Shown: piece by piece, positions 4,249 to 32,329 of the stretch
Layout of the letters: the number at the start of each line of letters is the position of its first letter
Numbering within the stretch: position 1 is the stretch's first letter
Translations under genes and position numbers: made by a program
Notes under the pieces: model-generated
The model's database searches: none
Told to the model about the DNA's origin: nothing
The model's input: the letters and a program-made list of their open reading frames with translations, nothing else
Origin: a virus
Virus record (IMG/VR): IMGVR_UViG_3300021962_000368
Span: 1-33,292 of that record
Strand: one strand, 5' to 3'
Length of the DNA stretch: 33,292 nt

Positions 4249-4698
4249 ATGCCACAATACATAGGATTTAGCACAATCAATGCCAACAAACCCAGATCAA
4301 CAAATGTCCGTACAGGTTATCAGGGCGGTGTAGGGTCTATCACAAACCCTATTATCGCGGGTAAAAAGTATAGATTGGTTGATGAAAGATTAGTGGTACA
4401 AGACTTTATCAACGCTCTTAACATACGTCAGGGTGAGAAAGTCGGACAACCGGACTACGGTACAACCATGTGGGGGTTTGTATTTGATCCAAACGTACAA
4501 GACGTACAAATGGCATTAGAAGAAGAAATACGCAGAATCGCTAGTCAGGACCCTAGACTAATGATTAATTATGTCAACGCATATCCGCAGCAAAATGGCA
4601 TATTAGTAGAAATGGAATTATCAATAGCACCCTTCAATCAAACGCAACTATTAAGCGTATTTTTTAATGCAAATAGTAATAGTGCCAGCGTAGTATAA
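4249..4698 (+). CDS. 25: Baseplate wedge subunit gp25 (GPW/gp25 family)
   Basis: gp25 is the small wedge protein that joins gp6 in the inner baseplate and initiates sheath assembly. The 149 residues compare with 132 in T4. The N-terminus MPQYIGFSTINANKPRSTN is the extension typical of marine T4-like phages. The GPW/gp25 domain spans about residues 38-142, with VQDFINALNIRQGEKVGQP, the YGTTMWGFVFDP motif, EEEIRRI and the closing VEMELSI strand all in place. The gene lies between the hub-region gene and gp6, as expected for a wedge partner of gp6. Confidence 0.93.
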   Translation: MPQYIGFSTINANKPRSTNVRTGYQGGVGSITNPIIAGKKYRLVDERLVVQDFINALNIRQGEKVGQPDYGTTMWGFVFDPNVQDVQMALEEEIRRIASQDPRLMINYVNAYPQQNGILVEMELSIAPFNQTQLLSVFFNANSNSASVV

Positions 4699-4724
4699 TC
4701 TTAAAAAATTGGTTTTTTCGGATA

Positions 4725-4732
4725 GATAAATA
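4725..4732 (+). promoter_or_regulatory. Late-promoter-like motif GATAAATA(CTA) before gp6
   Basis: GATAAATACTA stands in the 54-nt gap between gp25 and gp6, 20 nt before the gp6 ATG. It matches NATAAATA, and the same GATAAATACTA string recurs at 29348-29358 before a fibre-like gene. The spacing leaves room for a start near 4739 and a leader with the purine-rich site GAGAG (4743-4747). The role is inferred from the match and position. Confidence 0.6.
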
Positions 4733-4752
4733 CTAGAATTACGAGAGAAATC

Positions 4753-7700
4753 ATGGCTACAAGTTCTAGACAAGCAGCATTGTTCGGTGTAAATGATTGG
4801 AAAACAATCTACCAAACCTTTCGTGAAGTTGATTTCCGTAGTTATGATTACGAAACATTACGTAAGAGTTTTATAGATTACCTACGTACTTACTATCCAG
4901 AAACCTACAATGACTATATTGAATCAAGCGAATTTATCGCATTGCTTGACGTTATGGCATTCATGGGTCAAGGTCTTGCCTTTAGAAATGATTTAAATGC
5001 GCGTGAAAACTTTATAGACACTGCGGAACGCCGTGATAGCGTAATTAAGTTAGCAAACCTAGTAAGTTATACCCCGAAACGTAATCTATGTGCTGAAGGT
5101 TATTTAAAAGTTACAAGCATACAAACAACACAAAACATTACAGACTATAATGGTATTAATTTAAGTAATGCTATTATACTTTGGAATGATCCTGCTAACC
5201 CCAATTGGTTTGAGCAGTTTAATACAATCATAAACTCGGCGTTAATAAGCAGTCAGCGTGTAGGACGACCGGGTAACGTCAGCGACTTATTGGGAATTTT
5301 AACAGCAGAGTATGCTATACAAATACCCGGTAATAGTTTACCTATAGTACCGTTTACTACTTCAGTAGATGGCACTAGTATGGGCTTTGAATTAGTAAGC
5401 GTTACAAGTGTAGACAGTGATTCATTATATGAAATTCCCCCTGCCCCAACCGGCAAATTTAATATGCTTTATAGAAATGATAGGCTGGGCTTTGCTAGTG
5501 CAAATACAGGCTATTTCTTTTATTTTAAACAAGGGTCATTAGTTAATTTTGATTTTGTACTAGAACAGCAGATCGCTAACCAAGCAGTACCTATTAATAT
5601 TCAAGGTGTTAACAATACTGATACATGGTTATATCAATTAAACACAAATAACAATACAAGAATTTTATGGGAAAAAGTTGATAACGTTTATGCTGATGCT
5701 TACCTACAAACTGAATCAAGCAAGAAAAGTATATTCAGTGTAAGTTCAAGATTCAACGATCAAGTTACATATAATTTCGGTGATGGCGTTTTCAGTAACA
5801 TTCCCGTGGGAACTTTTAGATCATACGTTCGTGCAAGTAATGGACTTACATATACAATAGATCCAAATGAAATGCAAGGTATAACAGTTGCATTTACATA
5901 TATTACACGCGAAGGCCGTGCAGAAACACTAACATTGGGATTAACATTAACACAACCTGTCAGCAATGCACAGGCACGTGAAAGTCTACCAAGCATCAAG
6001 CAACGCGCACCTACACGTTACTATACACAGAATCGTATGGTTAATGGTGAAGATTATAACAATTTCCCGTATACATTATACAGTTCAATTATTAAATCAA
6101 AGGCTATTAATCGTAGTAGTATTGGTGTATCAAAGAATTTAGATTTACTTGACCCAACAGGCAAATATAGTAGCATCAATAGTTTTGGTGATGACGGTGC
6201 TATTTGGGAAAATAATGAAGATATTGTCCTTGATTTAACTATTAACAATAATAGTGACGTTATTAACTTTTTTGCCGATACATTAGCGGGAGCATTAGGA
6301 TTAAACCGCGCCAATCAATATTATATTAATCAAACAAGTACACAAGAAGGTTCTTGGTATAAAAGATTTACATTGCCATCATCCGGTACAAATGTAGTAT
6401 ATTGGAAAACAAGTACGGTAGATGCAAATAGTGAAAACGGATATTTTTATAATTTAGATTTAACATTGCAAGTACCGGTACAAGTAGGTATATTCAGTAC
6501 AACTAATACAAAATATATTACTAAGGGTGCAATGCTACAATTTGTTGCTCCAACTGGTTATTATTTTGATAGTAATAATAGATTAGTATTAGGCTTGCCT
6601 GGTAATAATCCTACAACATTATGGACTACAGTATTAAATGTTATCGGTGATGGTAGTAATAATGGAGAAGGTAATTTTAGTAATGGAAACGGTCCCGTCG
6701 CATTAAATGGTTATGTGCCATCCGGATGTATATTATATCAAATCATTCCAGTATTTGACAATTCTATAAGCATAGCCAACATTCAAGAAAGTATTGTAAA
6801 GACAGAATTAGAACAAGATTTTACATTAGTGTTTAATAATTCTTTACTTGTTAACCAAGATAGATGGACTATAAGACCTTATAATGATAATAATTGGTTT
6901 GTTAAATTTACCAGTTTGGGAAATCGCAGATATCAAATTTTAGTAAGATCATTAAGATATTATTTTGGTAGTGTTGCAGATACAAGATTTACATATAATG
7001 TTAATGAAATAGTTTATGATCCATTTAGTGGAAAAATTTTACAAGATTTTATTAATGTATTAGGTATTAATACTGCACCAGGATCATCATCTGCGCTAGG
7101 TAGGGATTATAAAGTTAATATATTAGGTCAAACAGTAGAAAGTGATGGTTATATTAATGATTTTGAAGTAGAAGTTAGTGCTACAGATGTGAATAATAAA
7201 CAACTAATTTTGAACCCAGATTTTTTCTATAATTTAACTGGAGTGGTAAATGGTAGCAGCAACATAGGCAAATACGTATTCTTTAGAACAGTACAAGACG
7301 CTATCAATTTAACACGTTTAGAAATTGTGCCGTCAACAGATATCATATATCAATATGCTACAGAAGAACAAATTGAATTAGTAAAATATGATTATCCTGT
7401 AGGACAATTATTTTATGCATATAGTAGTAATATTTTCTTTAAAACAGTTCAAGATACAACAATTAGAACACCGTTTTATACACTTGTTGCCCAACCAGAA
7501 TATTCAATAAAATATGGTCGTCAGGGTTTTAATTTCCAGTATAGACACAACAGTAGTAACACAACACGAATTGATCCAGCAACAACAAACATTGTTGATC
7601 TTTATGTTGTAACTCAGGCATACTATACACAATATCAAAATTACATACAAGACACAACAAATACAATCCCTGAACCTAGCAGGCCTACAATTGCAGAATT

Positions 7701-8142
7701 GTCAGCAAGTTACAATAAAGTAAATGATTACAAAATGTTGAGTGACAGTGTGGTATTAAATAGTGTAGTGTTTAAGCCATTATTTGGTCCTAAAGCAGCG
7801 CCAGCATTAAGAGGTACTATTAAAGTTATTAAAAACTCAACTACTACCGCTAGTGATAGTGAAATACGTAGCGCCGTTTTAACAACTATGAATCAATATT
7901 TTGATATTAATAGTTGGAATTTTGGAGATACTTTTTTCTTTAGCGAACTCAGCGCGTACTTACATAGTCAGTTAGGAGAGTTAATAAGTTCTACAGTTTT
8001 AGTACCTAATAATCCAGCAGAGCCTTTTGGAACATTATATGAAATTAAATGTAGCCCATATGAAATTTTTGTAAATGCAGCAACAGCAAATGACATTTTA
8101 GTAATACCTGCATTAACACCAAATGAATTACAAATAGCATAA
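4753..8142 (+). CDS. 6: Baseplate wedge subunit gp6, enlarged form
   Basis: gp6 forms the inner ring of the baseplate, where dimers join neighbouring wedges. The N-terminal 120 residues carry the family signature: WKTIYQTFREVDFRSYDYETL, then IDYLRTYYPETYNDY, FIALLDVMAFMGQGLAFR, ARENFIDTAERRDSVIKLA and YTPKR. A second conserved part (about 420-450, RAPTRYYTQNRMVNGEDYNNFPY) and the C-terminal part (about 990-1120, FKPLFGPKAAPALRG, WNFGDTFFFSELSAYLH) also look like gp6. At 1,129 residues it is far longer than T4 gp6 (660); the extra length appears to be beta-rich sequence between about 470 and 980. The gene follows a late-promoter-like motif with GAGAG at 4743-4747, and ends one base before the giant gene, implying coupled translation. 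Confidence 0.92.
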   Translation: MATSSRQAALFGVNDWKTIYQTFREVDFRSYDYETLRKSFIDYLRTYYPETYNDYIESSEFIALLDVMAFMGQGLAFRNDLNARENFIDTAERRDSVIKLANLVSYTPKRNLCAEGYLKVTSIQTTQNITDYNGINLSNAIILWNDPANPNWFEQFNTIINSALISSQRVGRPGNVSDLLGILTAEYAIQIPGNSLPIVPFTTSVDGTSMGFELVSVTSVDSDSLYEIPPAPTGKFNMLYRNDRLGFASANTGYFFYFKQGSLVNFDFVLEQQIANQAVPINIQGVNNTDTWLYQLNTNNNTRILWEKVDNVYADAYLQTESSKKSIFSVSSRFNDQVTYNFGDGVFSNIPVGTFRSYVRASNGLTYTIDPNEMQGITVAFTYITREGRAETLTLGLTLTQPVSNAQARESLPSIKQRAPTRYYTQNRMVNGEDYNNFPYTLYSSIIKSKAINRSSIGVSKNLDLLDPTGKYSSINSFGDDGAIWENNEDIVLDLTINNNSDVINFFADTLAGALGLNRANQYYINQTSTQEGSWYKRFTLPSSGTNVVYWKTSTVDANSENGYFYNLDLTLQVPVQVGIFSTTNTKYITKGAMLQFVAPTGYYFDSNNRLVLGLPGNNPTTLWTTVLNVIGDGSNNGEGNFSNGNGPVALNGYVPSGCILYQIIPVFDNSISIANIQESIVKTELEQDFTLVFNNSLLVNQDRWTIRPYNDNNWFVKFTSLGNRRYQILVRSLRYYFGSVADTRFTYNVNEIVYDPFSGKILQDFINVLGINTAPGSSSALGRDYKVNILGQTVESDGYINDFEVEVSATDVNNKQLILNPDFFYNLTGVVNGSSNIGKYVFFRTVQDAINLTRLEIVPSTDIIYQYATEEQIELVKYDYPVGQLFYAYSSNIFFKTVQDTTIRTPFYTLVAQPEYSIKYGRQGFNFQYRHNSSNTTRIDPATTNIVDLYVVTQAYYTQYQNYIQDTTNTIPEPSRPTIAELSASYNKVNDYKMLSDSVVLNSVVFKPLFGPKAAPALRGTIKVIKNSTTTASDSEIRSAVLTTMNQYFDINSWNFGDTFFFSELSAYLHSQLGELISSTVLVPNNPAEPFGTLYEIKCSPYEIFVNAATANDILVIPALTPNELQIA

Positions 8143-8143
8143 A

Positions 8144-11100
8144 ATGACTAGAATACGCACTTTAGATTTTTTACCTCAGATATTTCAAACATCAACCAAC
8201 AGCCAATTCCTTGCGGCTACCTTGGATCAATTAGTCAATCCACCATTAACAAGAAAAATACAAGGTTATGTAGGTAGTAAGTTTGGTTATGGTATTGATG
8301 CTAAAGACTATTATGTAACAGAACCCACAAAAACTAGAGCCGATTATCAACTAGAACCCGGTATTACGTTTTTAAAAGATAATGAATCAGTAGCCAAAGA
8401 TTTCATAAGTTATCCTGGATTATTAGACGCATTAAAATTGCAGGGTGGTATAACTACAGACAATAGTAAATTATTCAACAGTCAATTTTATAGTTGGGAT
8501 AGTTTTACTAATCTTGACATGATTATTAACTACAACCAGTACTACTGGTTGCCAGAAGGTCCACCTGCAGTTATTGTTGCTAGCGACACAGTATTCTTAA
8601 ACAATGAATATATTGTACAAAGCCTGCCTAACAGTTATAATATCAGAGCAGTGGGCGCAGGCGCCGGCGCAGATAATCCTACCATCACATTAATACGCGG
8701 CGGCACTTATAATTTTTATGTAAATCAGGATACTCAATTTTGGATTCAAGGTGCTCCTGGTGTAACAGGATATAGCCCTACACAAACTAATTTATATGTT
8801 CGTGATGTCTACGGTGTAAGCAATAATGGTTCAAGCAAAGACGTAATTACTTTTAATGTACCACAAAAAAATGCCCAAGATGAATATAACTATCCCGGCA
8901 ATAACCCTGTAGGGGTTGTAAGCACACGATCATTTAATCAATTAAATGGTGCAAGATTAGCAGATATTAATAATATTGATGGGGTCACATCCTTAAATGG
9001 TAGAACAGTTATGTTCTACAATACCAATATATCAAATGAAGTAGGGTATGTTTCTAATTTTTATGGTGAAGGAACATATGATGTAAATTATGATAACTTC
9101 ACTCCGTTGTTAACAACTGCGGCTACAGAGATAGATTTGTTTGGAAACATCACATTAGATAATGTTGATGATTTAGAAATCGGCACAGGAATACAATTTA
9201 GTGGAATTAGTTTTGGGGGTCTTGAATCTTATAGAACAACCAATTTCCCTATTTTTTCTAGTAACGATTTGGAAGCCGGATCTCAATATTTTATTAATTC
9301 TTTAGGAAATACTGACTGGATATCAGCAGGGGTAGAGTCTAATGCTATTATAAATGCTGAAATTAATGGTAATTTATTAATAGTTGAAAATCTAGTTAGT
9401 GGTGCATTTAGTATTGGACAAACTATAGTAGGCCCCGGTGTCGCTCCCGGCACAGTAATTATAGGGTATGACAACAATATTAGTATGACGACTAATAAAG
9501 ATACCTATATAATTAACAATGTACAAACTGTGTCTAATACTAATATGGATGTTTATGACATTCAAGTAGGTACAATATTTACTGCTACAGGTCCGGCAGT
9601 TGGCACTGGATTTGCAAGAGTTTATAGTCCGGTAATTTATTATGTTAAATCTATTAATACCTTAGATAATACTATTACTATAAGCAATATTTTAGGAGGC
9701 CCTACATATATTCCTAGTTCCGCAGACTCAGGTAGTATGACAGTCACTAAAAATCAGGGATTGTTTGAACAGGGTCTTTATGTTAATATTAATGATTATT
9801 TCTTTACTATCACATATGTGGGTGATATTGCAGATCCTATATTAAAATTAACCCCTGCAGGATTGATACCCACTGAACAAAAAATTACTCCGCAATTTGG
9901 TACACAATACATTGGATTAAATTTCTTTAAAAATCTAGATGGTTTTATTGAACAATATCCTTATATCTCTGCGCCATTAGATATATTGTATTATCAGGAT
10001 GGTACAAATCCAAATAAAGTTGGCGTGATACGTTTAATTGAAAGCAATACGTTAAACACATTAAATGTCAATACACAAATATTAGGTAAAAAGAATTTTA
10101 CATCAACTAACGGTGTTGTATTTACAAACGGATTAAAGGTTGAATTTGACGGTGACGTTATACCTAGAAGTTATTTAACTGGACAGTATTATGTCCAAGG
10201 TGTAGGCACTGCAATTGAATTGATTCCTGTAGAAAGTTTAATTGTTCCAGAAAGTTTTACTACACAAACATCATTGCCTTATGATACCACAAATTTTGAT
10301 ATAGGTAATTTTGACGCAGCATTGTTTATACCTGAAAATCAAGATTATATAACAATTGCTAGAAATAGTATTAACAAAAATGCATGGTCACGCAGCAATC
10401 GTTGGTTCCATAGTGATGTAATAAAAGCAACATCTGAATATAATAATGATCCAAATATTTTAACAACTTATGCTAACACTATTAATAAAGCAAAAAGACC
10501 TATCATTGAATTTTATCCTAACTTAAAGTTATTCAACAGCGGTACTGTCGCTAAATCATCAATTGATTTTATAGACACTAGAACCACAGATGCATTTTCA
10601 AGTGTTGCGGGACAGGCTGCATTTTATCCTGACGTAGAAACTTATACTGATTATACTGTAGAAGCAAGCATAAGTGCTAGCCCAACAGTTAATATAGGAG
10701 AATATCTAGTAGGACAACAATATAGAATTTTAAGTATTGGTACAACAGACCCTGCTAGTTGGTTAGAATTAGGTGTAGAGGTATTTGTAGAAGGTGAATT
10801 TGTACCCGGCATAGAATATGTAATTACAAGTTTAGGTGCAACCGATTGGAACGCAATCGCAGGAACAATAGGGGTTATATATAATGTAGGGAGTATATTT
10901 ACCGCTGTATACAGCGGCGAAATTGTAGGCTCCGGCGGCGGTCAAGCAGGTAAAACACTATTCACAGCACAAAATACCGGCGAATTTAATTCCAACACTT
11001 TGATATCAGGACTACCCTACACTATAACAGAATTAGGTAATACACTATGGGAAAATATTGGTAGTAGTTTAGATAGTATTACCTCATTAACGACTGTCCC

Positions 11101-14100
11101 AGCAACTGAATATATTATACAATCATTAGGAACTACAACTCAGGCTAATTGGAATACAGCAGCAGGCACCACAGACGTAGTTTATAAAGTAGGGGATGTG
11201 TTTATCCCTGTAACAAGTGTTCCGGGAGGTGGTACTGGTAAAGCTTATATTAGAAACTTTACTGCAACTGGTCCAGGAGTAGGCACAGGACTAGCAACAC
11301 AAGGTAACGGAACTTCATTATCACTTACTTCAACAAACATTTATATACCTGCCGATACAGTGAACGGAACATTATCTGTAGGCATGTATATTAATGATCA
11401 AATACAAAATGAAATTAGCCAATTGCCTGCTAACACACGAATTATAAGCATAGAAGGCACAGACACCTATACTATTAAAGTTATCTATCCATTGCCAACT
11501 ATTATTACTGGTTCAATACCCGGATCAAGTGTAATATCATTTGTTGCTAATACAAAAAATAATAGTGATTTACTACTGTTTCCCGGAGCAAGAATTGTTT
11601 TTGCTAATGAATCAAATCCATTAGTTAAAAATAAAATTTATGTAGCAAACTATAGCACAACTATAGCCGGATCATATCCTATCATTACATTAACAGAAGC
11701 ACTAGACGGCGACATACAAGCCAATGACCAATTTGCTGTATTGCGCGGACAATTATATCAAGGTACTAGTTTTTATTACAACGGTGAAAACTTTATACAA
11801 GCACAACAAAAGGTTACAGTCAATCAACCGCCAAAATTTGATGTGTATGATGAAAACGGTATAAGTTTTGGTAATGAAGATTTCTATGAAAGTACTACAT
11901 TTACCGGTAATGAATTATTCAGATATAAGTTAAATGAAAATGGTATCAATGATACTGTTTTAGGTTTTCCGGTTACTTATAGCAGTATTAATAACGTAGG
12001 TGATATCACATTTGAAGTTGCATTAAACACCGATACATTTAATTATGTAACTGGATTACAACAAAATATTACTGAAACACAGTATGTGAATACCGGTTAT
12101 GTTTACAACGTTACGTCAAGAACTGAATTTGAACGTTTGATAGGATGGCAAACAGCGGTAGCACCAAGCACTCAATATCAAATTTTCACATTTAATTATA
12201 CTCCGGACACAGATATAGAGTTTGAAGCAGGGGACAAAATTTTCTACACGGTATCATGTGATGTAGGACAACTTAATGTATCAGACACTATTTGGCCTAG
12301 TATTGAAGTTTATAATAACAATAATATATTAGTCGCAGAAACAGATTACACAGTAGAAAACGGTAGTAATTTTACTAACGTTACAGTACAAATACCCGGT
12401 ATGAATGAAACAGTAATACAGGTAGCAATATTAAGTAATCAAACAAGTAATAATGCATATTATACTGTACCTATTAATTTAAGTAACAATCCATTTAACG
12501 GTGACGTAACTACGGTAGATATAGGTGATATACGCGGTCATTATCAAAGCATATTCTATAACAATCCTGATACTACAGGTGTAGTATTTGGTCCTAACAA
12601 TACCAGAGATTTAGGTAATATTGTACCATGGGGTAATCGCATTATACAAAATAGTGCAAGTCTTGTATTACCCGGTGCGTTCTTACGTCAATCAGAACAT
12701 AATTTATTTGATGCATTGAAGTTTAATAGCAGAGAATATATTAAATTTAAATCATTATTAATAGATACAGCAAACAAGATTGCATGGCAACAAAGATTTA
12801 ATCCAAGTCAATTATTAGATGACGCATTAGATCAAATTACCAGTGTCAAAAACCAAGAGATGCCTTTCTTTTGGTCAGACATGATACCTAACAAATCTCC
12901 GTATCTAATAAACACATATACTTTCTTTAACAATATTGACACATCAACATTCCCACTAAGCAAAATTTATAATTTTGATACGGCTAATTATGAAGGTGTA
13001 TTAGTATATTTGGAGACAAAATTACAAGGTACTACAGTAACGCAACAACTTATTAAAAATATTGATTATATTATTAGTACAGAAAGTCCGTCTCTTGTAG
13101 TAACAAAAGACTTACTAAATGGCGATAAGATTATAGTCAAAGAATATAATCAAACATATGGTAGTTACATTCCAAACACACCTACTAAGTTAGGATTATA
13201 TCCTGCAACTGTACCGCATGTAACACTAGACAGTTCATATAATCAACCAACTTACTTTATAGTTGGTCATGATGGCAGTTATACAAAATTATACGGTGAT
13301 TATGATCCAATATTGGGTTGTATAGATTATCGTGATCAAGTGTTATTAGAATACGAAACTAGAGTTTATAATAACTTAAAGTTAAGCAGCACAATACCTA
13401 TCGTTGCTGCTGATATTATTCCTGGCTATTTTAGAAGTAATACAATCAACTATGATGAATGGTTGGATATGTATAGTGGCAACTTCTTAGATTGGATTGG
13501 ACAAAATAGATTGGACTATAAAACACAATTATATCTAACTAATAATGAGTACACATACAATTATAAGAATAGTAGAAATAAACTCAATAATAGTTTAATT
13601 CTACAAGGTAATTGGAGAGGTATCTACACATATTACTTTGATACCAGCACTCCTAACTTAACACCATGGGAAATGATTGGTTATAGCAACAAACCCGATT
13701 GGTGGGAAACACGTTATGGTCCTGCTCCATACACTAGCGACAACTTGATATTGTGGCAAGATATGGAAAATGGTATTGATTATAATAACGGCAATCCAAT
13801 AACAATTGACATCTATAAGCGTCCAGGATTGTTGAATATATTACCTGTAAATGATCAAGGCGAATTAATTAATCCATTATTTGCATTAGTCGGTAACTAT
13901 AATACAAATACTTTCCAACGTGATTGGAATATAGGTGACGTAGCACCTGTTGAATTTAGTTATCGCCGCAGTTCAACTTGGCCATATGATTTAATGAGAT
14001 TACAAGCATTATTGAAGCCTGCAAACTTCTTTAATCTTGGTGTAGATTTAGACAACTACAAATATAATATTGAATTCAATCAATTCTTAATTAATAATAG

Positions 14101-17100
14101 AACTCATTTAGTTCCTGCCGATATAAAAATATATGGTAATGGTACCGCAAAGACTTCATATATCAACTGGATAGTTGACTTTGAAAAGCAATTAGGAGTC
14201 AATGCTACTGATAACATAGAAAAATTATTAAAGAATTTAGATGTAAGGTTAGTATACAGATTAGCAGGATTTAGTGATAAGACATTACTAAAATTCTTTG
14301 TTGAAAAGGGTACTCCAGGATCTAAGAATGCAAGCCTATTAATTCCTGACGAAAGTTATCAAGTATTATTATATGAAAATCAACCATATGATAGACTGAT
14401 TTACAGTGCCGTCGTTGTACAATTAGTAGATGATGGATATAAAGTATTTGGTAATAGTCAAACAACAAATTACTTTAAAACATTAGTACCTGTAAAAAAT
14501 AGCAACACTAAAAAGATTACAATACAAGATGTTACAGTTGAGGTTGCAAGCGACTATAAAGATACTGTACAGTTAGTTCCATATGGCACTACACTCTATA
14601 CAGCACAAGAAGTGTCACAATTTTTAATGAGTTACGGCGCTTATCTCACAAGTGCAGGCGCTAAATTTGATATCATAGAATCAAGCGTAACAATCAATTG
14701 GGAACAAATGGTCGCAGAGTTCCTATACTGGTCTCAATTTGGCTGGAGTACAAGAAGTATCGTTACATTAAATCCAGCAGCCAACACTCTAATAATTGAT
14801 AAAGAAAGTCAAATAGTACAACCATTGACTTATCAACAAACTAATTTTGTATTAAACCAAAATTTATATCCTATTGAAATGAGGGATTTGAGTATATCAA
14901 GAGATGGAACAATATTTAGTGTATCAGCATTGAATAGAGGCGATACTATCGCTTACGGACAATTTAACTTAAGCAACATAGAACATGGTATAGTTTTTGA
15001 TAACAATACTATTTTCGGTGACGTTGTTTATAACCTAATATCAGGATTGAAACAAAATCGCATATTCGTTCAAGGTACTAAGAGCGCCGAATGGAACGGC
15101 ACTATGTTTGCCAGTGGATTTATATATAACCAAGACAATATTGAAGAATGGAAAGAAAATACAAAATACACTAAGGGCGCAATTGTTAAATTCAAAAACA
15201 AGTATTTTACTGCATTATCTGTATTGCAACCTAGCCCTACATTTGTAGAAGCACAATGGAAAGAAACCGATTACGATCAAATACAAAAGGGACTATTGCC
15301 TAATAGCAGCACAAGAAGTTATGAAAGTTCCTTGTACTACAATTCTAATCAAGCCAATCTTGAAGAAGATGCCGATCAAGTAGCCTTTAGTCTAATAGGA
15401 TTTAGACCAAGACCATATATGGCAAGTGCTGACTTGACAGATATTACTCAAGTAAATGTTTATAAAAACTTCATTAAAGAAAAAGGTACTAGAGCTGCAT
15501 TGAGCGTGTTCAAGGGTGCAAACTTACCGCAGGGCGGTATTGATTATAACATTTATGAAAATTGGGCAATACTAGCCGGCACATTTGGCGGCGTACTAAA
15601 CAATAATTTTATTGAATTCAAACTAAATCAAAATTCATTGACAGGCAATCCAGGAACCGTGGGCCTAACAACAGGTCAAACAGTTGAAGGAGTACAACAA
15701 ATAGTACCATTATATAATTTAAGAAATTATGGTCAACCTGTTAATACTGCAAATGTATTACCATTAATATCTCAATACACCCCCAGTGTTACATTCCCAG
15801 ACGCTGGTTATGTAAATTTTAACGATGTTAAAATGAGTGCATACTTCTTTGAACAGTTAGCGGTAGGTGTAGATCAATACGGCACGATTGTACCTATCAA
15901 CAATTTTTACGTAGGCGACTATGTTTATCTAGCGAATTATCTTGCAAAATGGCAAGTAATGACACCCTATGTTATAGGACAAGTTATTCAAGCAAATGCT
16001 AACTTGAATGGTACAACTACGATTACATTTGATAAACCACATAACTTAAATCAATATGAAATTTTTGCTATTATAAACTTTGATAGTTCTATCAATGGAT
16101 ATTACGTAGCAACTCAAATTGTAAATCCTTATGAAGTTATAGTTCCTCTCGTATTAAGCAATAGTGTACGAACTATTACAGGTCAAGGTATAGCATATAA
16201 TTTCTATAGCCAGCGTGTAGATCAACCAAGCGATATACAAAATCTACCGTTATTAGAAAAAGAATTTGTTAAAAATACTGCATGGGTAGACCTTAATAAT
16301 GACGGCGGTTGGGCAGTATATCGTAAAAGTATTAACTATCAATATGATAATGAATTTGAAATAGAAAATAGTGTAAATTTTGGTTCATCTGTTGCATTCA
16401 CATCAAAGGGTGACTACTTGTTCGGTGATGCAGGTACAGGTAATGTTTATCGCTTCCAGTACGATGCATTGAACAAAGTTTATGAACAAGATCAAACGAT
16501 TACTAACGATATTAGTTTTGGTACTAATATTGCCTATGCTCAAAATGTATATGCCATATCGCAAGCAACAGTTGATCCTAAAGTTTACTTTTATTATGTA
16601 AACGATACAACAATCACAGATGACATAACTCCATTTACAACAACAATTGCTGCCCCAATTGGTGCAACTAATTTTGGTACTGGTCTTGCAATGTCAGGTG
16701 ATGCTAATTGGTTATATATTGGCGATTATGATACAGACACGCCAAATATTAGAAATAAAGTTCATGCCTATCGTAGAAATAATACAGTAGTTGATGCAGG
16801 ATCATTCGTTATTGGTCGTACATATCAAATTACTGAGTTAGGCATTGATCCCGAATTTACAACTTCTGGTGCAGTAGAAAATGCTGTAGGTATATATTTC
16901 ACTGCGACTAACGTTGGTTCAGGTACAGGTAAAGCAATAAATGTAGATTATGAATTTGTAACTACATTAGAAAGTCCGGAAGTTACAGCGGATAAATTTG
17001 GTAGCGTAGTATCAACAAATTATTACGGTGATGTCGTTGTTGTAGGTGCGCCCGAATATGATTACAGTATCAATATAGAAAATTGGGGTAAATCATATGT

Positions 17101-20100
17101 GTTTAACAGAATTATTCAAAATTTTGAAGCACAAAATAATTCTTCAACAGACTCAACAACATTTACATTAGCATTTACACCAATTGGATCACAAGATCCT
17201 ATAGTTTATAAGAATGGAATTATTGTAGATAGTAGCAATTATACTATTACAGGAACAAATTTAGTTTATACTGGAACATTTAAAGCAGGTGATATAATAG
17301 AAGTTGATAGTTGTAACTTTAATCTTGTTCAAACACTTACAACAGAAACTAATCCAAGAATAGGAGTTGGATTTGGTACTGGATTAGATACAAACAAATT
17401 TGCAACTGAAATATTAGTTGGTGCACCGTTCGCGTTGAATAGCACAAATGAAGAAGGTGCTGTATATAGATATACAAATGCAGGGGCACGTTTTGGTATT
17501 GTAATAGGCACAGAAGAAGTCAATGTTACAGCACCTAGAGACTTATTAATAAATGGCTTTTTAGTAACTATACCAGTAGGTAACGGTGATTTGGCTGCAT
17601 TAACAATTAATCAAGCAGGCATATCTAATGTTGAAGCAGCATCAAGTAATGGCAAATTAATCATTTCTTTAATTAATCAAGACTTAGCATTAGCAAATGA
17701 AAAATTATTAATTAATGTTACTGATACAACTACACTAGAAGAATTAGGTTTAACATTATATACACAAACACAAGTTATACAATGTCCTCACTTGACAGGC
17801 CCAACTCAATTTGGCACAACTATTAAATTTAACGAACAAAATTCAGCAGTAGTCAGCGCGCCTTCAGGAACAAGATATGCGCAAACAACCTTTGATTTTA
17901 CCGACGATGAAAATTATCAAAATGATTTAGTGTTTGATAATAACGCTACACAGTTTATAGATAGTTATCCTAACGCCGGCGCAGTATACATGTACGATTA
18001 TTTGAGTAATTTTGAAGAAAATTTAAATAATATCGGTGCATACACATATGCTCAAAGTTGTAACAGCCGTGATCAAATTTACGGATCACAACCATATTAT
18101 GGTCGTGTATTAGACTTTAATGAAAATAAAGTTATTATAGGTACTCCTAACTATCGTCCTGATGATATTGATGGACAGGTTGTAGTTTATATTAATGAAA
18201 CCGGCATACCAAACTGGTCTGTATATCGTCAAACAAATCCAATTGTTGATATCAATAGAATACAGAACATACAAATTTATAGTGCAGAATCAAATCAAAC
18301 TTTAGTCAACATGGATTATTTTGATCCATTGCAGGGTAAATTGTTGGGTGCAGTTAGACAGAATATTGATAATATATCAAATGTTGATCCTGCCACATAC
18401 AACAATGAACTTAATACACAAAGCGGATTTGTATGGGGTGTAAATCAAGTTGGTACAGTTTGGTTTGACACCACAAACGTAAGATTTGTAAATTATCATC
18501 AAAATGATAATGCTTATAATGCAAAATATTGGGGAGCATTATTCCCGGGCAGTGACGTAGCGATTTATACTTGGATAGGTAGTTCCGTCAGTCCAGCAGA
18601 TTATCAAGGGCCCGGTATCCCTAAAGATGTAAATGCATATACAGTACAGACTATAATTAATAGTTCAAATACTATACAGCCTGTATATTACTTCTGGGTT
18701 AGAAATTCAGGATTAATATTAGGCAACAAAACACTAGCCGATACTAGTATCGCTTCATATATAAGAAATCCATTAGCATCAGGAATTACTTATTTGGCTC
18801 CGATTAATTCAAACGTATTTGCTCTTTATAATAGCCAGCAATATATCAATGCCACAGATAGTGTGTTGCACATAGGTTATAGTACAGGTTATAATGATGA
18901 TCCGAGCCATCAAAGTTATCAATTAATTAGACAAGATTTTGCAAGCGATTTCTTACCGGGCTTTGTAAATCCTGCTATGGGAATTTTCACACCAGAATCA
19001 TTATATGATAGAATGCTAGATAGCTTGGCTGGTGTTGATGAAGAAGGCGGCGTATTGCCGGATCCGTTCTTGCCTAAACTAGTACAAACAGGTGTATTGG
19101 CAAGGCCAAGACAAAGTTTCTTCTATGATCGTTACAAAGCATTACAAAATTATCTACAGTATGCAAATTCAATTTTACAATTGTATCCTATTACAGAATT
19201 ACGCCCACAAATTTCATTCTTGAATGAAAAAGGTGCGTACTATGACACAACAAACTATTGGGAAAGAATTAATTGGTGGGCACCGGGTTATAATAATAAT
19301 ACAAAACCAGTAACACAAGTTCAGTTTTATGCAGATTTGTCAACATTAACTGTACCAGAAGGTACAATTGTAAGTGTAAGCCAAAATAGTCAAGGCTTTG
19401 TTGAATATTACAGACTAGATCAAAACAATGTTTGGACTAGAATTGGATTACAAAACGGTACCATAAGATTTAAAACTGAATTATGGAATTATGATTTAGG
19501 TCAGACTGGTTATGGCGATGACTTCTACGGCACAACCCCATTTGATCAATATCCAAGTCAAGAAACACGTTGGATAATTCGCGCACTTAACGAACAAATC
19601 TATACAAATGATTTGCTAATTTATCGCAACAAATCATTGATATTATTGTTTGAATATATCCAAGCAGAAACAGTAGAAAATCAAAACTATTTGCCATGGT
19701 TAAATAAAACAAGTTTAGTAGACATATCGCACAAGATACGTGAATTAGTACCAATTCAAAACTTCAAATCTGACAATCAAGAATTTTTGTCTGGATATGT
19801 AAACGAAGTTAAACCTTATCACGTAGTGATTAAAGAATTCTTGTTTGAGTATAAAGGAACCGATGTATATCAAGGCAACATCACAGATTTTGATCTACCA
19901 GCAACTTATGATTTTACAACACAATCATTTATAACACCAGAATTGGTTTATAATAATCCTAATCAATCAAGTGAATTTTTACCTGATGATTCCGTATGGA
20001 CACTACCTCAATATACTGAGTGGTATAATAATTATGGCGTAAGTTTGGTTGGTCAAGAAAATTATCTAATAACTAAAATTGTAAGTTATTTGCCTATCGG

Positions 20101-23100
20101 CGCTACATTTGTTATTGTTGATAACGCACAAGGTTTCCCCATCAACGGTGTTATTAAAATAGCAGACGTTGAAAATCCAACAAGATTTGAAATTATAGGT
20201 TATAGTTCTGTTGATACTAGTACTAATACACTATTTGGTTTAACTAGAGGTTTAAACGGGACAGAAGAATATGATCACATACCTAATGAAAATGTCTTTA
20301 TTGATTTGCCAGCAGTTGTAGTATTAGATGGCGGTAGAGGTTACAGCAACCCACCTAGAGTATTAGCCCAAATTGATCTTAGTAAGTATCCTGAGCCTAA
20401 AGAAGAAGCAGTACTAGAAGCAATAATGAGTCTAGACTCAGTGGTAGGTATTAAAGTAATAAATCCTGGAATAGGATATGCTGTATTACCTAATATTATC
20501 ATTGATCCAGCCGCATCGTTTACATTTAGTAGTGATAATGTTACATCATTAGAGAATACTATTGAACTTTATGCTCCTGCATTGCAAACAGGGGATTTGA
20601 TACGTTATGTTAAAGTATCTGGAGAAAATATTGGTGGATTAGAAAACAATCAATATTATTATATTAACGTATTAGCAAGTAGTCCATTAACTGTATTAGC
20701 ACTATATGCAAATTATAGCGATGCAGTTAAGGATCAAAACAGAGTTGAAATTTATAGTCAAGGCACAGGATCTAATCATAAGTTTGAATTAGGTGCAAAA
20801 GCCAGTGCTATAAGTTCAAGTTATCCAATCAGAGAAAACAATTTAACTTTACGATTTGATAGAACAACTTACGATTCACAAGTCAAAGACTGGACTCCTG
20901 GCTCATTTTATGGAGCATTCTTTGCAGGTTCATATAACAATACAGAAAACGTAAGCAGTTCAAGTATTGAATTGCAGTCAACTTTACCTGCAATAAACAC
21001 TATATTAGCAAGTAATGATGGATTAGTATTACCTATCTCTAGCGTAAGCAACGAATCAGTTACCGAATGGTCAGAATTTGAACGTACCATATCTAATACT
21101 AATGCTTCAACAAATACGCTCTCACTACAAGTAAGTGTATCTACAGAAAATGCTAGTGGTTCTACAATCGGCTTTACAGTTGGAATGCCAATTAAATTTA
21201 CAGGACAAATGGGTACTAGCAACATTGTTGCTGATCAAACTTATTATGTCAACGAAATTATAAATGATACACAATTCACTATTAGTGAAACAATATCTGG
21301 TCCTGTTTATAATTTAGGAAATTATACTGCAACAACTATTAAATGCTATACCGGACAAATCACAGATACAGCAATTATTGGAACTTATTATCCGGGCATT
21401 AGAACAGTAGTCCAAACAAGTTCAACAAATAGCGTTGTTACTATCCCATTAACTAGTATTGGAACAGGCGGAACATCTGGTTTATATACAGGAATTCCAG
21501 TAGTGTTTACAGGTAATGTGTTTGGTGGCATAGAAGAACACGTTGTATATTTTGTTAATAGTGTATTAGATAATCAAAATTTCACCATACGTGAAAATAA
21601 CGATTTTGTAAGAATTAAAGCATTAAGTATTAACGCTGCCAACCAAATCATAGTACAAAATACGATCGGTCTAAATGTTAATGACAGAATCGTGTTTAGT
21701 AATATGACTATAGAGGGCGAGTCAGTTTCAGATTGGGGTAACATTGAGTTAGGTACAATATATTACGTAAAGAGTATTGGTATCAATGTTATTACAATTA
21801 GTGAAACATTAGGCGGTAGTGAGTATGCATTAAGTCCGGTAACTGCCGATAGTCAAACATATTGCTTCTTTGTAGATCAAGAAGGTAATCTTGAATTAAC
21901 AGATGAAACTGGCACTATGACAATTAACATACAGTTGCCAGCAAGTCCTGGACAAGTTGACGGACAATTGTTTACGTTCTATCCTACAAGTACTCAATAC
22001 ACAAATATTACATCATTGGAATATGGTAATTTAATTCAAAGAACAATAGAATATTCTTCAGCAACAGCCAATCTTATAACTATTACCAATAGTAGCGGCG
22101 GTCGTTCGGGTATGTACATAGGCATGCCGATTACAGTTGATATTAACATGGGCGGTCTTGTTGCCAATACGACATATTACATAGAAGAAATAGGCACATT
22201 AACTTATGCTATCACAAGTTCATCAGCAACAAGTGATGAATTTACAGTAGATGGTACTGTAGATTCTATGTATGTAGATATGCCTGTTGTATTCTCAGAA
22301 AATCCCTTAGGTAGTATAGTAGTCGGTGCAACTTATTATGTTGATACTATAGATACTATTAACAACAGATTTACAGTTAAAGATAGTTTAACAGGAACAA
22401 AAGTTGAATTAACAACAAATTCTGGTAGCATGATTGCAACTGGACCTGTATATTTAAAACTTAATACAACTATTACAAGTGATGAATATGGCCCAGTAAC
22501 ACTAAATCAAAAAATAACAACAGATGCCACTTTTGATGTAAGTTATATATTAGGTGGTTATAGAGTCATAATAAGTGATCAGGGTGCAGGCTTTACTATA
22601 AACAATACTATTAAAATACCCGGTAATTTACTAGGAGGTACAACTCCTAAAAATGATTTAACAATCACTGTTAACAAGATTGATAGTATAGTGCCTGGAA
22701 CATATAGTTGGTCATTACCAATAGAAAGTAATGGAAATATATTAAATGTCATTTGTAATGGAAAACCAAATGCAACAACAAACAAATACTATCTAAAGGT
22801 CATTAATGCAAATTCATTTAAGGTATATAGTGATCCAAGAATGACTATACCAGTAAGTGGTTTGACATTACCATATGATGGTTGGACTAGCGCTAACGCT
22901 ACTTCATGTTCTGGCACAAATATTATATTAGACGATACAAATTCCTTTACAGAAAATGATTCAGTCGTATTCACTGGAACAGTATTTGGTAATATAATAT
23001 TAGGTAAAACATATTATATTGCAGACATAATTGACAGTACAACTATTACTATTAGTGAGGAACCAGGTGGCACAGCATTTGTAGTTGGATCTGATTCTGG

Positions 23101-26100
23101 CTATATGATTATGACTAAGGCCGGTTCATTTATGCAATTACCTGAACCATTCTACTTTAATCAAAGCATAGTCAAATACAATAATCGCGTATATATTTGC
23201 GTGGTTTCAAATAACGACGATCAATTTGTATTCGGTAAGTGGGAAGAATTGAATAGCGGAGATAGACGCTTAAACGCAATGGATCGTGTTGTGGGCTACT
23301 ATCAACCGACTATTAATATGCCGGGTAAAGAACTATCACAGTTGTTTACAGGAGTAACTTATCCTAACACTACATATAAGGGTAATGCGTTTGACCCTGC
23401 GGAACAATTTGAAATTGATACATTATTGCAGGATCAAGTATTTTATCCGGAAAACGTTAATATTACAGGAATTACATTTGATGGTATTAACTATATAGCA
23501 CCTGCAAATTTACCAAATTATACTGCATTAGCAAAAGATTTAGAAGTCACTGATGATTGGCTATTAGGAAGATTAAGCAATAAATCATTATCAATTACAG
23601 ATATTATTAAAACAAATGATCTATATGTAATGACATCTACTAATAGTGCCACTCCGATATTAACTAGTACGGATGCAGTAGGCTGGTCAACTAACGGCTT
23701 CTTTGTACCATTCGGAGTCAATGAAGATGAATTGGAGTTTGAAAGGAAATTATTAATTCAATCAAAACTATCATTTAATAAAATTACTTACGCAAATGGA
23801 AAATATATTGCAGTAGGAAAAAATATTTGTGTAAGCGCTAATGGTGTTGATTGGGTTGAAGTATTTAAATTTGATACAGACAATAGCGGTATATTATATG
23901 ATGTCGCATATATTTCTTTACCGCTCGCTACATTCTTCTTAGCAGTAGGTACATATAACGGTTCAAAAATAATATTAAGAAGCACAGACGGAGTAGAATG
24001 GACAATAATTAGCAACTATAGATATCCTCCTGGTGTGCCTCCCTCTCATATAACCGCTACAATGAGAACTATAGCATATAATAATCTATTTGCTATAATA
24101 GCAGGAGATTTAGGAGTAGTATATCGCTATACAGGAGGCGTAAACGCCACCTATATATCTTCTATAGGTTCCGGAGATAGAATAAATGATTCTGCATTCG
24201 CACAAAATATATTCGTTTCAATAGGCGATAATGGAAAATTATTCACTAGTAGTGACGCAATTACTTGGGTTGATAAATCAACCGGAACAACAGAAAATTT
24301 AAATGTTTTATATTTTAATAATATAAAAAATGAATGGACTATAGCAGGAAATAACAATACATTATTCCAAACTGATGATATAACAGCAACTCCTATAGTT
24401 TGGGATAAAACACAAGTGTTTAGTATACCTAATCCTGCGTATACAATTAAAGGCGATCCATTCATGTCTGGTTATGGACCAGAAGAATTAGTTCCGGGGG
24501 TAATTCAAGATCAATTAACTATGATCGTTAATACACGTCCAGGAACAAACTGGCCTGCCACAGAATACGCACATGTGGGATATAATGTTAAATCTATTGA
24601 ATTAGATTATAATAGTGAAAATATCTATGATTTTGATAATGTTGCACAAGTACCAAGTAACATATTTGTATCTGTAATAGAAGAGGGATTATGTACAACA
24701 CTTTATCCAAATATTGATTATACTGTAGATTATGTAACGAAGAAAGTAGTACTAGATACAAACATTACAATTAGTCAACAATTAAGAATTGACATATATG
24801 AAATAGGCAACGGGGACCAATTAGTTAAATCAAATACTCAAATTGATCCATTACGTGATAATAGCATTACTGGCTTCCAAGAAATTTTATTAAATTGCAA
24901 CTATACTGCTGAGAGATTGAACGGTGGTGGTATTATTAGACCTAATACCGATCCTACTTCAACACTGGCTACAGCAACCAATGGATTGACTGATACTATA
25001 TCAGTTGACGATATCTCTATCTTTAATTTAAATGATGATGTATATTTTACAGGAGATGTATTTGGTGGTATAAGTGAAAATACTCCATATTATGTAAAGA
25101 CGATAGACGCTATACAGAAAACAATTACTATTTCTGACACTATAGTAAGTGGAATAGCAGGACCAATATTTGACTTGGATACTGATTCAGGATCAAACAT
25201 GACAGTGATTGCTCAAAATGGCCCCGGTCAATATTGGACACCTCCTGCTGTATTTTATAATGGCACTAAACTTGTAGCAGGATCAACTAACCTAGTAATC
25301 AGAAGTAAATCTAGCAACAATGCATTAACTACATATTCTACATCAGGATTTATTGTAGGACAAAAAATAGTGTTTGATAATAAGATTTTTGGTGGATTGA
25401 CAGCACATCAAGAATATTACATAAAGGAGATATTAACTGACGGAGTTCAATTTACTATCTCAACTACTATCGGAGGTCCAGCAGTAACATTATCAAATGG
25501 ACTAGGACAAAGTATTTTCATAACAGAAGATTATGCAGTAATGCTTGCTAATAATCAAATTTCTGCCAAAGTAATATTTGCAAATACTTATGATACTTCA
25601 GTTGATTATCTTGCATTTAGTTTCTTTGGTGAAACACTGCCAACACAATACGGCTACACAGTTCCAGAAACACAAACTATGTATGGTAATGGCACTACGG
25701 GTTATTATTATCTAACAAACTATTTAGGTGAAGATAATGACACTAATGCTATTGTTGAAGTTAATGGCTTAAGAATAATGCCAGATCAGTATACAATTAA
25801 TTATAATCAGCAGGTCTTAGTATTTGACACATTAGAACCAACTCCGACTGATGTTATAGCAGTTACAACATTTAATGACACACAAAGACAATATTTAAAC
25901 ACACAGTATGAATCAAGTCCTATAAATGTAGTGCCTATTAATTATGTGTTTAATACAATAACACAACCATTATTAGACACGCAAACAGCCGGTGCAGCCG
26001 GAGGATATTTCATAGCCGCGTCAACAACCGGTATGGTTGTAGGACAAACAGTTATGTTTCAGATTGATCAATCAGGCACATACAGTGGTTTTGGCGGAGT

Positions 26101-30393: not shown

Positions 30394-30699
30394 ATGGATG
30401 TCAAATCACTGCTCACCGAAGCCAAAGCACGTTTCCAACATAACGCAGCAAAAGAATATTTAAAAGAAAAATACAGAGACAAAACCTTACTTGCTGAACA
30501 AGGTGGTCTTTGGCGTGCTGATAAAGAAACAATTGCTTTCTTAAATAGTTTTACTACTGAAAGAGTTGTTCTCATAGATACCTACAATAATCCAGTAGAA
30601 GTTAATCGTGAAGAATTACTTCAAAAACTGCATGTAACTTACCAAACAATAATGGATGAATATCTCAAAGAATGGAAAGAACTTGAGGCCAAGAGATGA
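30394..30699 (+). CDS. Conserved phage protein of unknown function, 101 aa
   Basis: A small charged protein, helical at both ends, with a central segment AEQGGLWRADKETIAFLNSF followed by a strand VVLIDTYNNPVEVN and a C-terminal helix rich in Glu, Lys and Trp. I know similar short proteins from T4-like marine phages after the tail genes, but no function. The start has AGAGG 8 nt upstream. A second ATG four bases later is out of frame. The stop overlaps the next start (ATGA, 30696-30699), so it leads an overlapping gene block with the glycosyltransferase-like genes. Confidence 0.75.
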   Translation: MDVKSLLTEAKARFQHNAAKEYLKEKYRDKTLLAEQGGLWRADKETIAFLNSFTTERVVLIDTYNNPVEVNREELLQKLHVTYQTIMDEYLKEWKELEAKR

Positions 30700-31499
30700 G
30701 TCGCGGCGCGATATTATTCGCATTCAATAGCCCTAAATATGATTATTATGCAATGGCAGAATTCACTGCTAAACGCATCAATCATTTTCTTGATATGCCT
30801 GTAACATTAGTCACAAATGAAAAATCATTACTAGCAAGCACAGGTTATAAATTTGATAAAGTAATTGTTACTGAAGCTGATCAAACAAATAACTTTAGAA
30901 ATGTAATATGGATCAATAAAGGTCGCTACATGGCTTACGAATTAAGTCCATATGATGAAACACTTGTACTAGATGCCGACTATGTAATCAATAGTAGTAA
31001 ACTTACAAAAGTATTTGATGTTATGGATGATTTCACATGCCACGATAGTACTGCGTATTTTATGCACGGTAAAACACCCGAAGAAACATTAGGTCCATTA
31101 AGTTTCAATACATTGTGGGCTACCGTCATTGGTTTCAAGAAAACAAAACGTGTTCAGCAAATATTTGAATGCTTAGAAATGGTGCAAAAGAATTATAGTC
31201 ATTATGCTAACATACATGGTTTTCCGCCTGAAATCTATAGAAACGATCATGGTCTAACATTAGCACATAGAATCGTAAATGGACATAGTTATCCGCAATC
31301 TGATATTATACCTTGGAATCTTATGCACGTAGGTGTTAAGACTTACGTGTATAAAAATAGCCCATATGAATTCAATACAAGTTATACGATATTATTTGAC
31401 AAATGGAATCGCGGCAAGTTAAAGAAAGAATATATTACAATAAAAGATATGGATTTTCACGTAATCAATAAAGATATCTTTGTGGAGTTAATACAATGA
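30696..31499 (+). CDS. Glycosyltransferase-like protein (GT-A type), 267 aa
   Basis: The N-terminus (SRGAILFAFNSPKYDYYAMA) followed by PVTLVTNE and KVIVTE looks like the alternating strands and helices of a nucleotide-sugar-binding fold. YELSPYDETLVLDADYVIN contains a D-A-D (residues 93-95), the metal/nucleotide-sugar DxD motif of GT-A enzymes such as GT8. Late residues include H and W positions (SDIIPWNLMHVGVK), as often in this group. It is a relative of the next protein: both begin MSRG and both have SPYDET before the acidic motif. Start: GAGG at 30685-30688 and the ATGA overlap. The acceptor is unknown; the location after the fibre genes suggests virion or surface glycan modification (inference). 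Confidence 0.72.
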   Translation: MSRGAILFAFNSPKYDYYAMAEFTAKRINHFLDMPVTLVTNEKSLLASTGYKFDKVIVTEADQTNNFRNVIWINKGRYMAYELSPYDETLVLDADYVINSSKLTKVFDVMDDFTCHDSTAYFMHGKTPEETLGPLSFNTLWATVIGFKKTKRVQQIFECLEMVQKNYSHYANIHGFPPEIYRNDHGLTLAHRIVNGHSYPQSDIIPWNLMHVGVKTYVYKNSPYEFNTSYTILFDKWNRGKLKKEYITIKDMDFHVINKDIFVELIQ

Positions 31500-32329
31500 G
31501 TCGCGGCTATGTTGTATTAGCACAAAACACAAGTGATGTTGATTATGTCTATTGTGCCGAAGTATTAGCAATGAGCATACGGAATGTTATGCCAAATGCC
31601 GATATCACATTGATTTCTGATGATGTTGATGATAGCAAATATTTTGATAAAGTTGTAGCATTACCATATGGCGACCTCGCTAAAGACAGTAAATGGAAAC
31701 TAATCAACGACTGGCAAGTATATGAAGCAAGTCCTTATGATGAGACCATTAAACTAGAAGCAGATATGATTATCCCGCAAAACATAGATTATTGGTGGGA
31801 TGTACTGAAGTTAAAAGATATCGTGGTTAGCACACACATACGTGACTTTAAAGGACAACTTAGCGATTGTATGGTCTATAGACGTTTCTTAGAAAATAAT
31901 AAACTACCCAATACATACAACTCAATTACATATTTCAAAAAGTCTGAAACGGCACAACGTTTTTTTAATATAGTACGTGATGTGTTTGAATGTTGGCCAG
32001 ATTATCGTGGATTACTACAAAGTAAAATTGATGAAGAAGTATCAACTGACTGGGCATATAGTTTAGCAGCACATATTATAGGCATAGAACATACAACGTT
32101 ACCTGCATTTAATAATATGAGCATGGTACATATGAAGCAGTTTGTTAATAATACACATACGGAAGACTGGACTGACAGTTTAATTTACGAGATAAGTAAA
32201 GAGCAAATACGTATCAATACTATACCGCAATATCATCCATTTCACTACCATGTAAAAGCGTTTAGCAAAAAATTACGAGCAATATATGAGCAACCCAGAA
32301 AGCAAGGATCCATTCCTTCTAATCTCTGA
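31496..32329 (+). CDS. Glycosyltransferase-like protein, 277 aa, relative of the upstream gene
   Basis: The protein opens MSRGYVVLAQNTSDVDYVYC, then has ADITLISDD and KVVALPYGD, and YEASPYDETIKLEADMII, in which E-A-D (88-90) stands where its neighbour has D-A-D. This ExD variant of DxD could still bind metal. The middle has NSITYFKKS and DWAYSLAAHIIG; the end is basic and aromatic (YHPFHYHVKAFSKKLRAIYE). Fold and function are inferred from the alignment with the preceding protein. The start is fixed by GGAG at 31484-31487 and the ATGA overlap with the upstream gene (31496-31499). Its 3' end overlaps the next gene by 44 nt. Confidence 0.68.
   Translation: MSRGYVVLAQNTSDVDYVYCAEVLAMSIRNVMPNADITLISDDVDDSKYFDKVVALPYGDLAKDSKWKLINDWQVYEASPYDETIKLEADMIIPQNIDYWWDVLKLKDIVVSTHIRDFKGQLSDCMVYRRFLENNKLPNTYNSITYFKKSETAQRFFNIVRDVFECWPDYRGLLQSKIDEEVSTDWAYSLAAHIIGIEHTTLPAFNNMSMVHMKQFVNNTHTEDWTDSLIYEISKEQIRINTIPQYHPFHYHVKAFSKKLRAIYEQPRKQGSIPSNL

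Follow-up and report, generated by a model that had tools for sequence, protein, structure and literature searches.

Three-level nesting of small modules in a giant protein of the tail base from an uncultured aquatic phage, and the simpler versions found in its relatives

The gene considered here comes from an uncultured aquatic virus of bacteria and encodes a giant protein of the tail base. It raises the question of whether a protein module can be split by a second, unrelated module that is itself split by a third and, if so, how such an arrangement was reached. The gene lies in a 33,292-base contig that carries a tail region and is held as a virus record in a viral contig collection; the whole of this stretch is referred to as the window. 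The best family match of the giant protein is phrog_10938, a virion structural protein family (E 1.8e-137). The baseplate wedge gene directly preceding it has homologues in large myoviruses; its best matches among named phages, at 32–34% identity, come from jumbo phages, for example Phosso, Munch and Atu_ph07. At the same gene position PA5oct and Atu_ph07 encode ‘virion structural proteins’ of 3,857 and 4,449 aa, respectively, and gp355 of PA5oct, annotated as detected by ESI-MS/MS, is an ortholog of the giant protein. As judged by gene order only, the giant gene is suggested to occupy the position of T4 gp7. Elsewhere in the giant protein, matches below cut-off were seen to a chitin-binding module (CBM_5_12, E 0.005, positions 15146–15214) and to an FG-GAP repeat (E 0.009, positions 16985–17104). 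Outside the giant gene, an adjacent pair of putative glycosyltransferase genes, related to one another by eye, is present at 30696–32329.

Table 1. Position of the nested modules, intact module copies and surrounding features in the window
Feature	Position	Strand	Residues and basis
Baseplate wedge gene (gp6-like)	4753–8142		phrog_10646, E 3.9e-257
Giant virion protein gene	8144–27595	+	ORF of 6483 aa, immediately downstream of the gp6-like wedge gene
Module A, N-terminal half	9107–9235	+	residues ~322–364; HMM match and joined-halves test
Linker, A N-terminal half to B	9236–9262	+	best A excision begins at residue 365
Module B, N-terminal half	9263–9346	+	residues 374–401; HMM, joined-halves test and split point
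Module C, intact	9347–9553	+	residues 402–470; HMM 112 bits (the HMM itself includes this copy and its orthologs); phrog_21413, E 1.1e-6
Module B, C-terminal half	9554–9616	+	residues 471–491; HMM, joined-halves test and split point
Linker, B to A C-terminal half	9617–9634	+	best A excision stops at residue 497
Module A, C-terminal half	9635–9754	+	residues 498–537; HMM and joined-halves test
Second hot site	10655–11323	+	residues ~838–1060; B(B) then B(B), within a C-like host domain
Free-standing intact B	16805–16936	+	residues 2888–2931 from the start codon (2890–2933 on the stop-to-stop count); HMM 48.8 bits
Series of intact A modules	21110–22441	+	residues ~4323–4766; HMM
Further intact A modules, three copies	24965–26749	+	residues ~5609–6202; HMM

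Within residues 322–537 of the giant protein, module A is split by module B and B in turn by module C. HMMs built from compact intact copies of A, B and C located all five pieces, in the order A, B, C, B, A and in frame within the ORF, with recognisable halves of A and of B on both sides of their inserts, as a sequence-only reading of the window had described. That reading had placed the nest at 9149–9748; the location stands, and the true span is slightly wider, at about 9107–9754. For a joined-halves test, every segment on a grid of start and end positions was cut out, and the remainder was rescored by HMM. Rejoined B scored 57.4 bits, against 26.6 and 25.5 bits for its separate halves, and the best of all excisions tested was that of residues 402–473. 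Rejoined A scored 58.0 bits, against 21.3 and 29.3 bits for its halves, with the best excision at residues 365–497. As a null, pieces of this protein were joined at random approximately 4,600 times, with maxima of 8.6 bits for B and 11.7 bits for A; pairing a true half with a random piece gave at most 36.8 and 38.5 bits. Once joined, the outer halves thus score as whole modules against the models of the intact copies. Compared by hhalign, the A, B and C profiles are mutually unrelated, with probabilities below 1%. The three-level nesting of unrelated modules is confirmed as real at the sequence level.

Intact versions of the two outer modules were also said to occur elsewhere in the same protein. 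HMM matches placed intact A copies at residues ~4325–4770, 4918–4993, 5611–5795 and 6126–6204, and the free-standing B of Table 1 is intact, so that the outer two modules do recur. One intact A copy matches Pfam PF16190 (E1_FCCH) at 25.1 bits, under the curated gathering cut-off of 29.5, and there is no ubiquitin E1 context here. Neither B nor C matched a Pfam or NCBIfam family above cut-off, and none of the three matched the Pfam Ig families. Searches of named phages by tblastn gave no match with residues ~251–633 or with the B consensus sequence, although the BLAST low-complexity filter may hide glycine- and threonine-rich modules in both cases.

Structure prediction of residues 300–548 with AlphaFold2 (19 sequences) gave a model with a pLDDT of 84.1 and a pTM of 0.59. 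Structural alignment with VIA-align returned two sets of matches. The first comprises about 65–78 aligned residues (~73), discontinuous and spanning model positions ~19–242, with Z of 6–7.5; the second comprises 62–76 aligned residues within positions ~91–174. Because of these aligned ranges, the first set is taken to represent A alone, modelled as one barrel formed from its two halves, and the second to represent C with a little of B, which in the model resembles small barrels such as those of Pbp11, T5 pb9 and 8eci. All Z values of both sets are below 8, and so below the reliable range. The predicted A aligned with the barrels of EF-Tu domain 2, ribosomal L3 and F1-ATPase at Z of 4.6–7.5. 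With every structural Z below 8, fold names are to be read as leads. In BFVD, other phage proteins gave matches of ~80 columns at 1.7–3.7 Å and 19–28% identity. A PDB sequence search with the nest region and with C returned nothing credible, and Foldseek gave no match at E <= 0.001.

Versions with fewer layers were sought in related phages, in 195 orthologous loci with a readable site that came from three scans with orthologous queries and include some near-copies. Most of these loci carry A alone, and in some the site holds no module and a linker of 11–66 aa is present instead. B alone occupies the site in L085 and L101–103, and A(B), with B at the same A loop as in the window, was found in L041. 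In L013 and L127, and in L094, A(B) is formed at two other A loops, while in L017 and L020 a tandem A takes the place of nesting at the same site. The full A(B(C)) is present in the window, about ten relatives and the distant L095, L096 and L123. A five-level A(B(C(B(C)))) was read by eye in L016, L018 and L019; its AlphaFold model has an inner part with pLDDT of 30–40, unusable there. The automated parse of these states is a lower bound, since it misses the A(B(C)) of the window as well as L013, L127 and L016, which were read by eye. In the alignment, L041 is without exactly C, and the A-only loci are without exactly B(C). Relatives thus keep zero-, one-, two-, three- and five-layer versions, from which the build-up of the stack can be followed almost one step at a time.

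The loops at which modules are opened differ between hosts. The proposal of a permissive loop needs refining in this respect: B is always cut at one loop, A is opened at several different loops, and C opened by an insert was seen once. In L063 and L064, residues 645–770 of the giant protein contain B inside an A module at yet another A loop. On a tree of the flanks (89 rows, 483 columns, unrooted), site state changes at least 20 times and A(B(C)) changes at least three times. Both gain (L055, in a largely module-free clade) and loss (the L059–L182 clade) are indicated on this unrooted tree.

Some differences between relatives are recent. Between L053 and L055, DNA identity is 87% and 90% over the 750 nt on each side of the site, which is ~59 nt long in the former and ~329 nt, with module A, in the latter. 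This event also replaces the ~59 nt and is hence not a clean insertion. L004 is 85–88% identical to L012 and L005 (less far downstream for L005), and an additional B within B, a net 150 nt in frame, is found only in L012 and L005; the uninserted form is common to L003, L014 and the window. The window, compared with L014 (77% identity), has an additional B within B at residues ~985–1035. At the DNA level, the search for donor copies of the inserted modules found none: outside its own near-copies, the best relative of the inner B of L012 is only 45% identical, and the module A of L055 matches any other at 71.5% over 123 nt at best. Most inserted B copies resemble copies from other phages, often at other sites, more closely than those beside them in their own gene. 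An origin of inserted B by intragenic duplication was rejected on this ground; the exception is the L006 inner B (47%). No shared 6-mer, and so no target-site duplication or junction repeat, was found at the L012 junction, the cleanest and the one junction inspected.

A second site, downstream of the nest, behaves in a similar way. Its orthologs carry no B, one B, B(B)+B or, as in the window, B(B)+B(B), and the deepest nests are B(B(B))+B in L012 and L024 and B(B)+B(B(B)) in L006. The host domain here was called C-like by eye, without detection by the C profile, and the nests were read by eye with their split points scored. Every one of the 11 split B hosts examined is opened between columns 23 and 28 of the B module, which has 43 columns. 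We judge that at least seven of these 11 uses of the loop are independent, because the position or the inserted sequence differs. When 102 intact modules from 48 proteins were excised, 20 junction-spanning hosts were exposed, compared with 0–5 for random excisions. Repeated insertion of small beta modules, as first proposed from the sequence, is strongly supported by the joined halves, the ortholog ladders, the pairs of empty and filled sites and the reuse of one B loop.

The placing of these modules within fibre genes proved wrong or too narrow. Here, as in PA5oct and Atu_ph07, the giant gene comes right after that of the gp6-like baseplate wedge, and its best family is phrog_10938; it is for this reason not regarded as a fibre gene. 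The same modules are also present in a head-tail adaptor and a head-closure protein. A search beyond the giant proteins with a B(C) profile found free-standing C in unrelated virion proteins: in an SU10-type head-tail adaptor (L230; PF24175, phrog_12985), where the C stretch is extra, in a head-closure protein (L226, phrog_578) and in fibre- or baseplate-like ORFs (L224, L227). The same search placed B in L263, a small ORF that matches no family. The identities of C to the query in the adaptor, head-closure and fibre-like ORFs are mostly 38–54%, and once 65% over 37 residues; contemporary phage domain mosaicism (PMC10684548) asks for 50% or more between fragments of otherwise unrelated proteins. 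Adaptor (SU10_adaptor) or head-closure proteins of other phages with C as an extra segment are those at L230:1297–2265, L251:1267–2217 and L226:1132–3102. Among giant proteins, C was seen only inside B.

Taken together, the arrangement is very probably the result of recursive insertion, at loops, of three small beta modules. The loop between the halves of A, whose predicted structure is a barrel like that of EF-Tu domain 2, carries B, and B carries C in its single permissive loop. The termini of the inserted modules are probably close together, so that the host module would still fold. Modules may arrive and leave via in-frame recombination between co-infecting phages, with B(C) sometimes moving as a compound unit; the modules may have arrived singly, in the order A, B, C, or with B(C) joining A in a single step. 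The modules would serve as surface decoration on the outside of this baseplate-associated protein, where they may diversify contacts with cell surfaces or accumulate near-neutrally.

An account in which the nest is ancient, the simpler states arose by module loss and the modules are not truly mobile gains from the flank tree, on which the placement of the module-free L059–L182 clade among A(B(C)) phages suggests losses, and from L095, which, though distant, has B(C) junctions similar to those of the window. We nevertheless hold it unlikely, given that L055 carries A within a mostly module-free clade, that the third B of L012 and L005 is missing from L004, L014, L003 and the window, that inserted copies are closest to those of other phages, often at other sites, and that orthologs of the giant protein in isolates contain no significant A, B or C matches. 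The reuse of one loop, judged to have occurred independently at least seven times, and the repeated entry of B into B would fit a dedicated means of spread, such as a mobile element, a diversity-generating retroelement or a homing system, in place of general phage recombination. This is more doubtful still: the cleanest junction has no target-site duplication, reading the translations of the window ORFs revealed no recognisable gene for a reverse transcriptase or nuclease, and folding constraint alone could account for the choice of loop.

Two explanations would remove the nest altogether. Every locus comes from assembled metagenomes and the modules repeat, the setting in which assembly artefacts could arise, but A(B(C)) is found in about ten distinct sequences from many samples (46–63% identical to the window over the region), the five-level form in three contigs from different samples and the L095 type in four, and all nest-bearing sequences are open in frame; misassembly is thus highly improbable. 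Short modules in a protein with a high content of T, G, S and I would favour chance matches of low-complexity, beta-rich sequence. That possibility, which we rate the most remote, is refuted at the sequence level by the joined-halves and ortholog tests: random joins reach at most 12 bits against 57–58, and the exact ladder among orthologs and the recursive-excision null likewise stand against it.

Recursive insertion has likenesses among known systems. Phage Ig-like accessory domains are small beta domains added to virion proteins and common to several phages. The domains of T4 Hoc form a string (compare PMC10385173), whereas the modules here are nested. Nested domain insertion of the form A1-B1-C-B2-A2 is described in an ECOD census, with up to six levels in cyanobacterial RNA polymerase (PMC13114784); there, as here, a domain interrupts a domain that interrupts another, and the words ‘phage’ and ‘viral’ were not found in that text. 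Unlike in those nests, the same small modules here both host and insert, repeatedly at the same loop, and orthologs keep intermediate states. Phage domain mosaicism offers a second likeness, in that phage proteins that otherwise differ have fragments in common, above all in tail fibres and tail spikes but also in baseplate proteins (PMC10684548, a text in which the word ‘nested’ is absent). Here, in contrast, modules are inserted in loops of other modules, and they also occur in connector proteins. In the literature searched, no direct precedent for nested domain insertion in phages was found, and no description of recursive use of one loop by the same modules with intermediates at one site. 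Nested domain insertion itself is known; what is new is recursive, apparently ongoing nesting with kept intermediates in phages.

Domain insertion is usually inferred from finished proteins, while here versions with 0, 1, 2, 3 and 5 layers are present at one orthologous site. Phage pairs that are 85–90% identical and differ by one module make the tempo, order and loop rule of insertion directly testable. B and C are uncatalogued small modules, present in phage virion proteins that are unrelated to one another, and might be put to use as natural scaffolds for insertion. A further idea, to which we give little credence, is that B, alone or as B(C), acts in phages as a mobile element at the protein level, a mini-module selected to land in a loop that its own copies also offer. 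If true, it could nest with no fixed limit and spread over virion genes for baseplate, adaptor, head closure and fibre.
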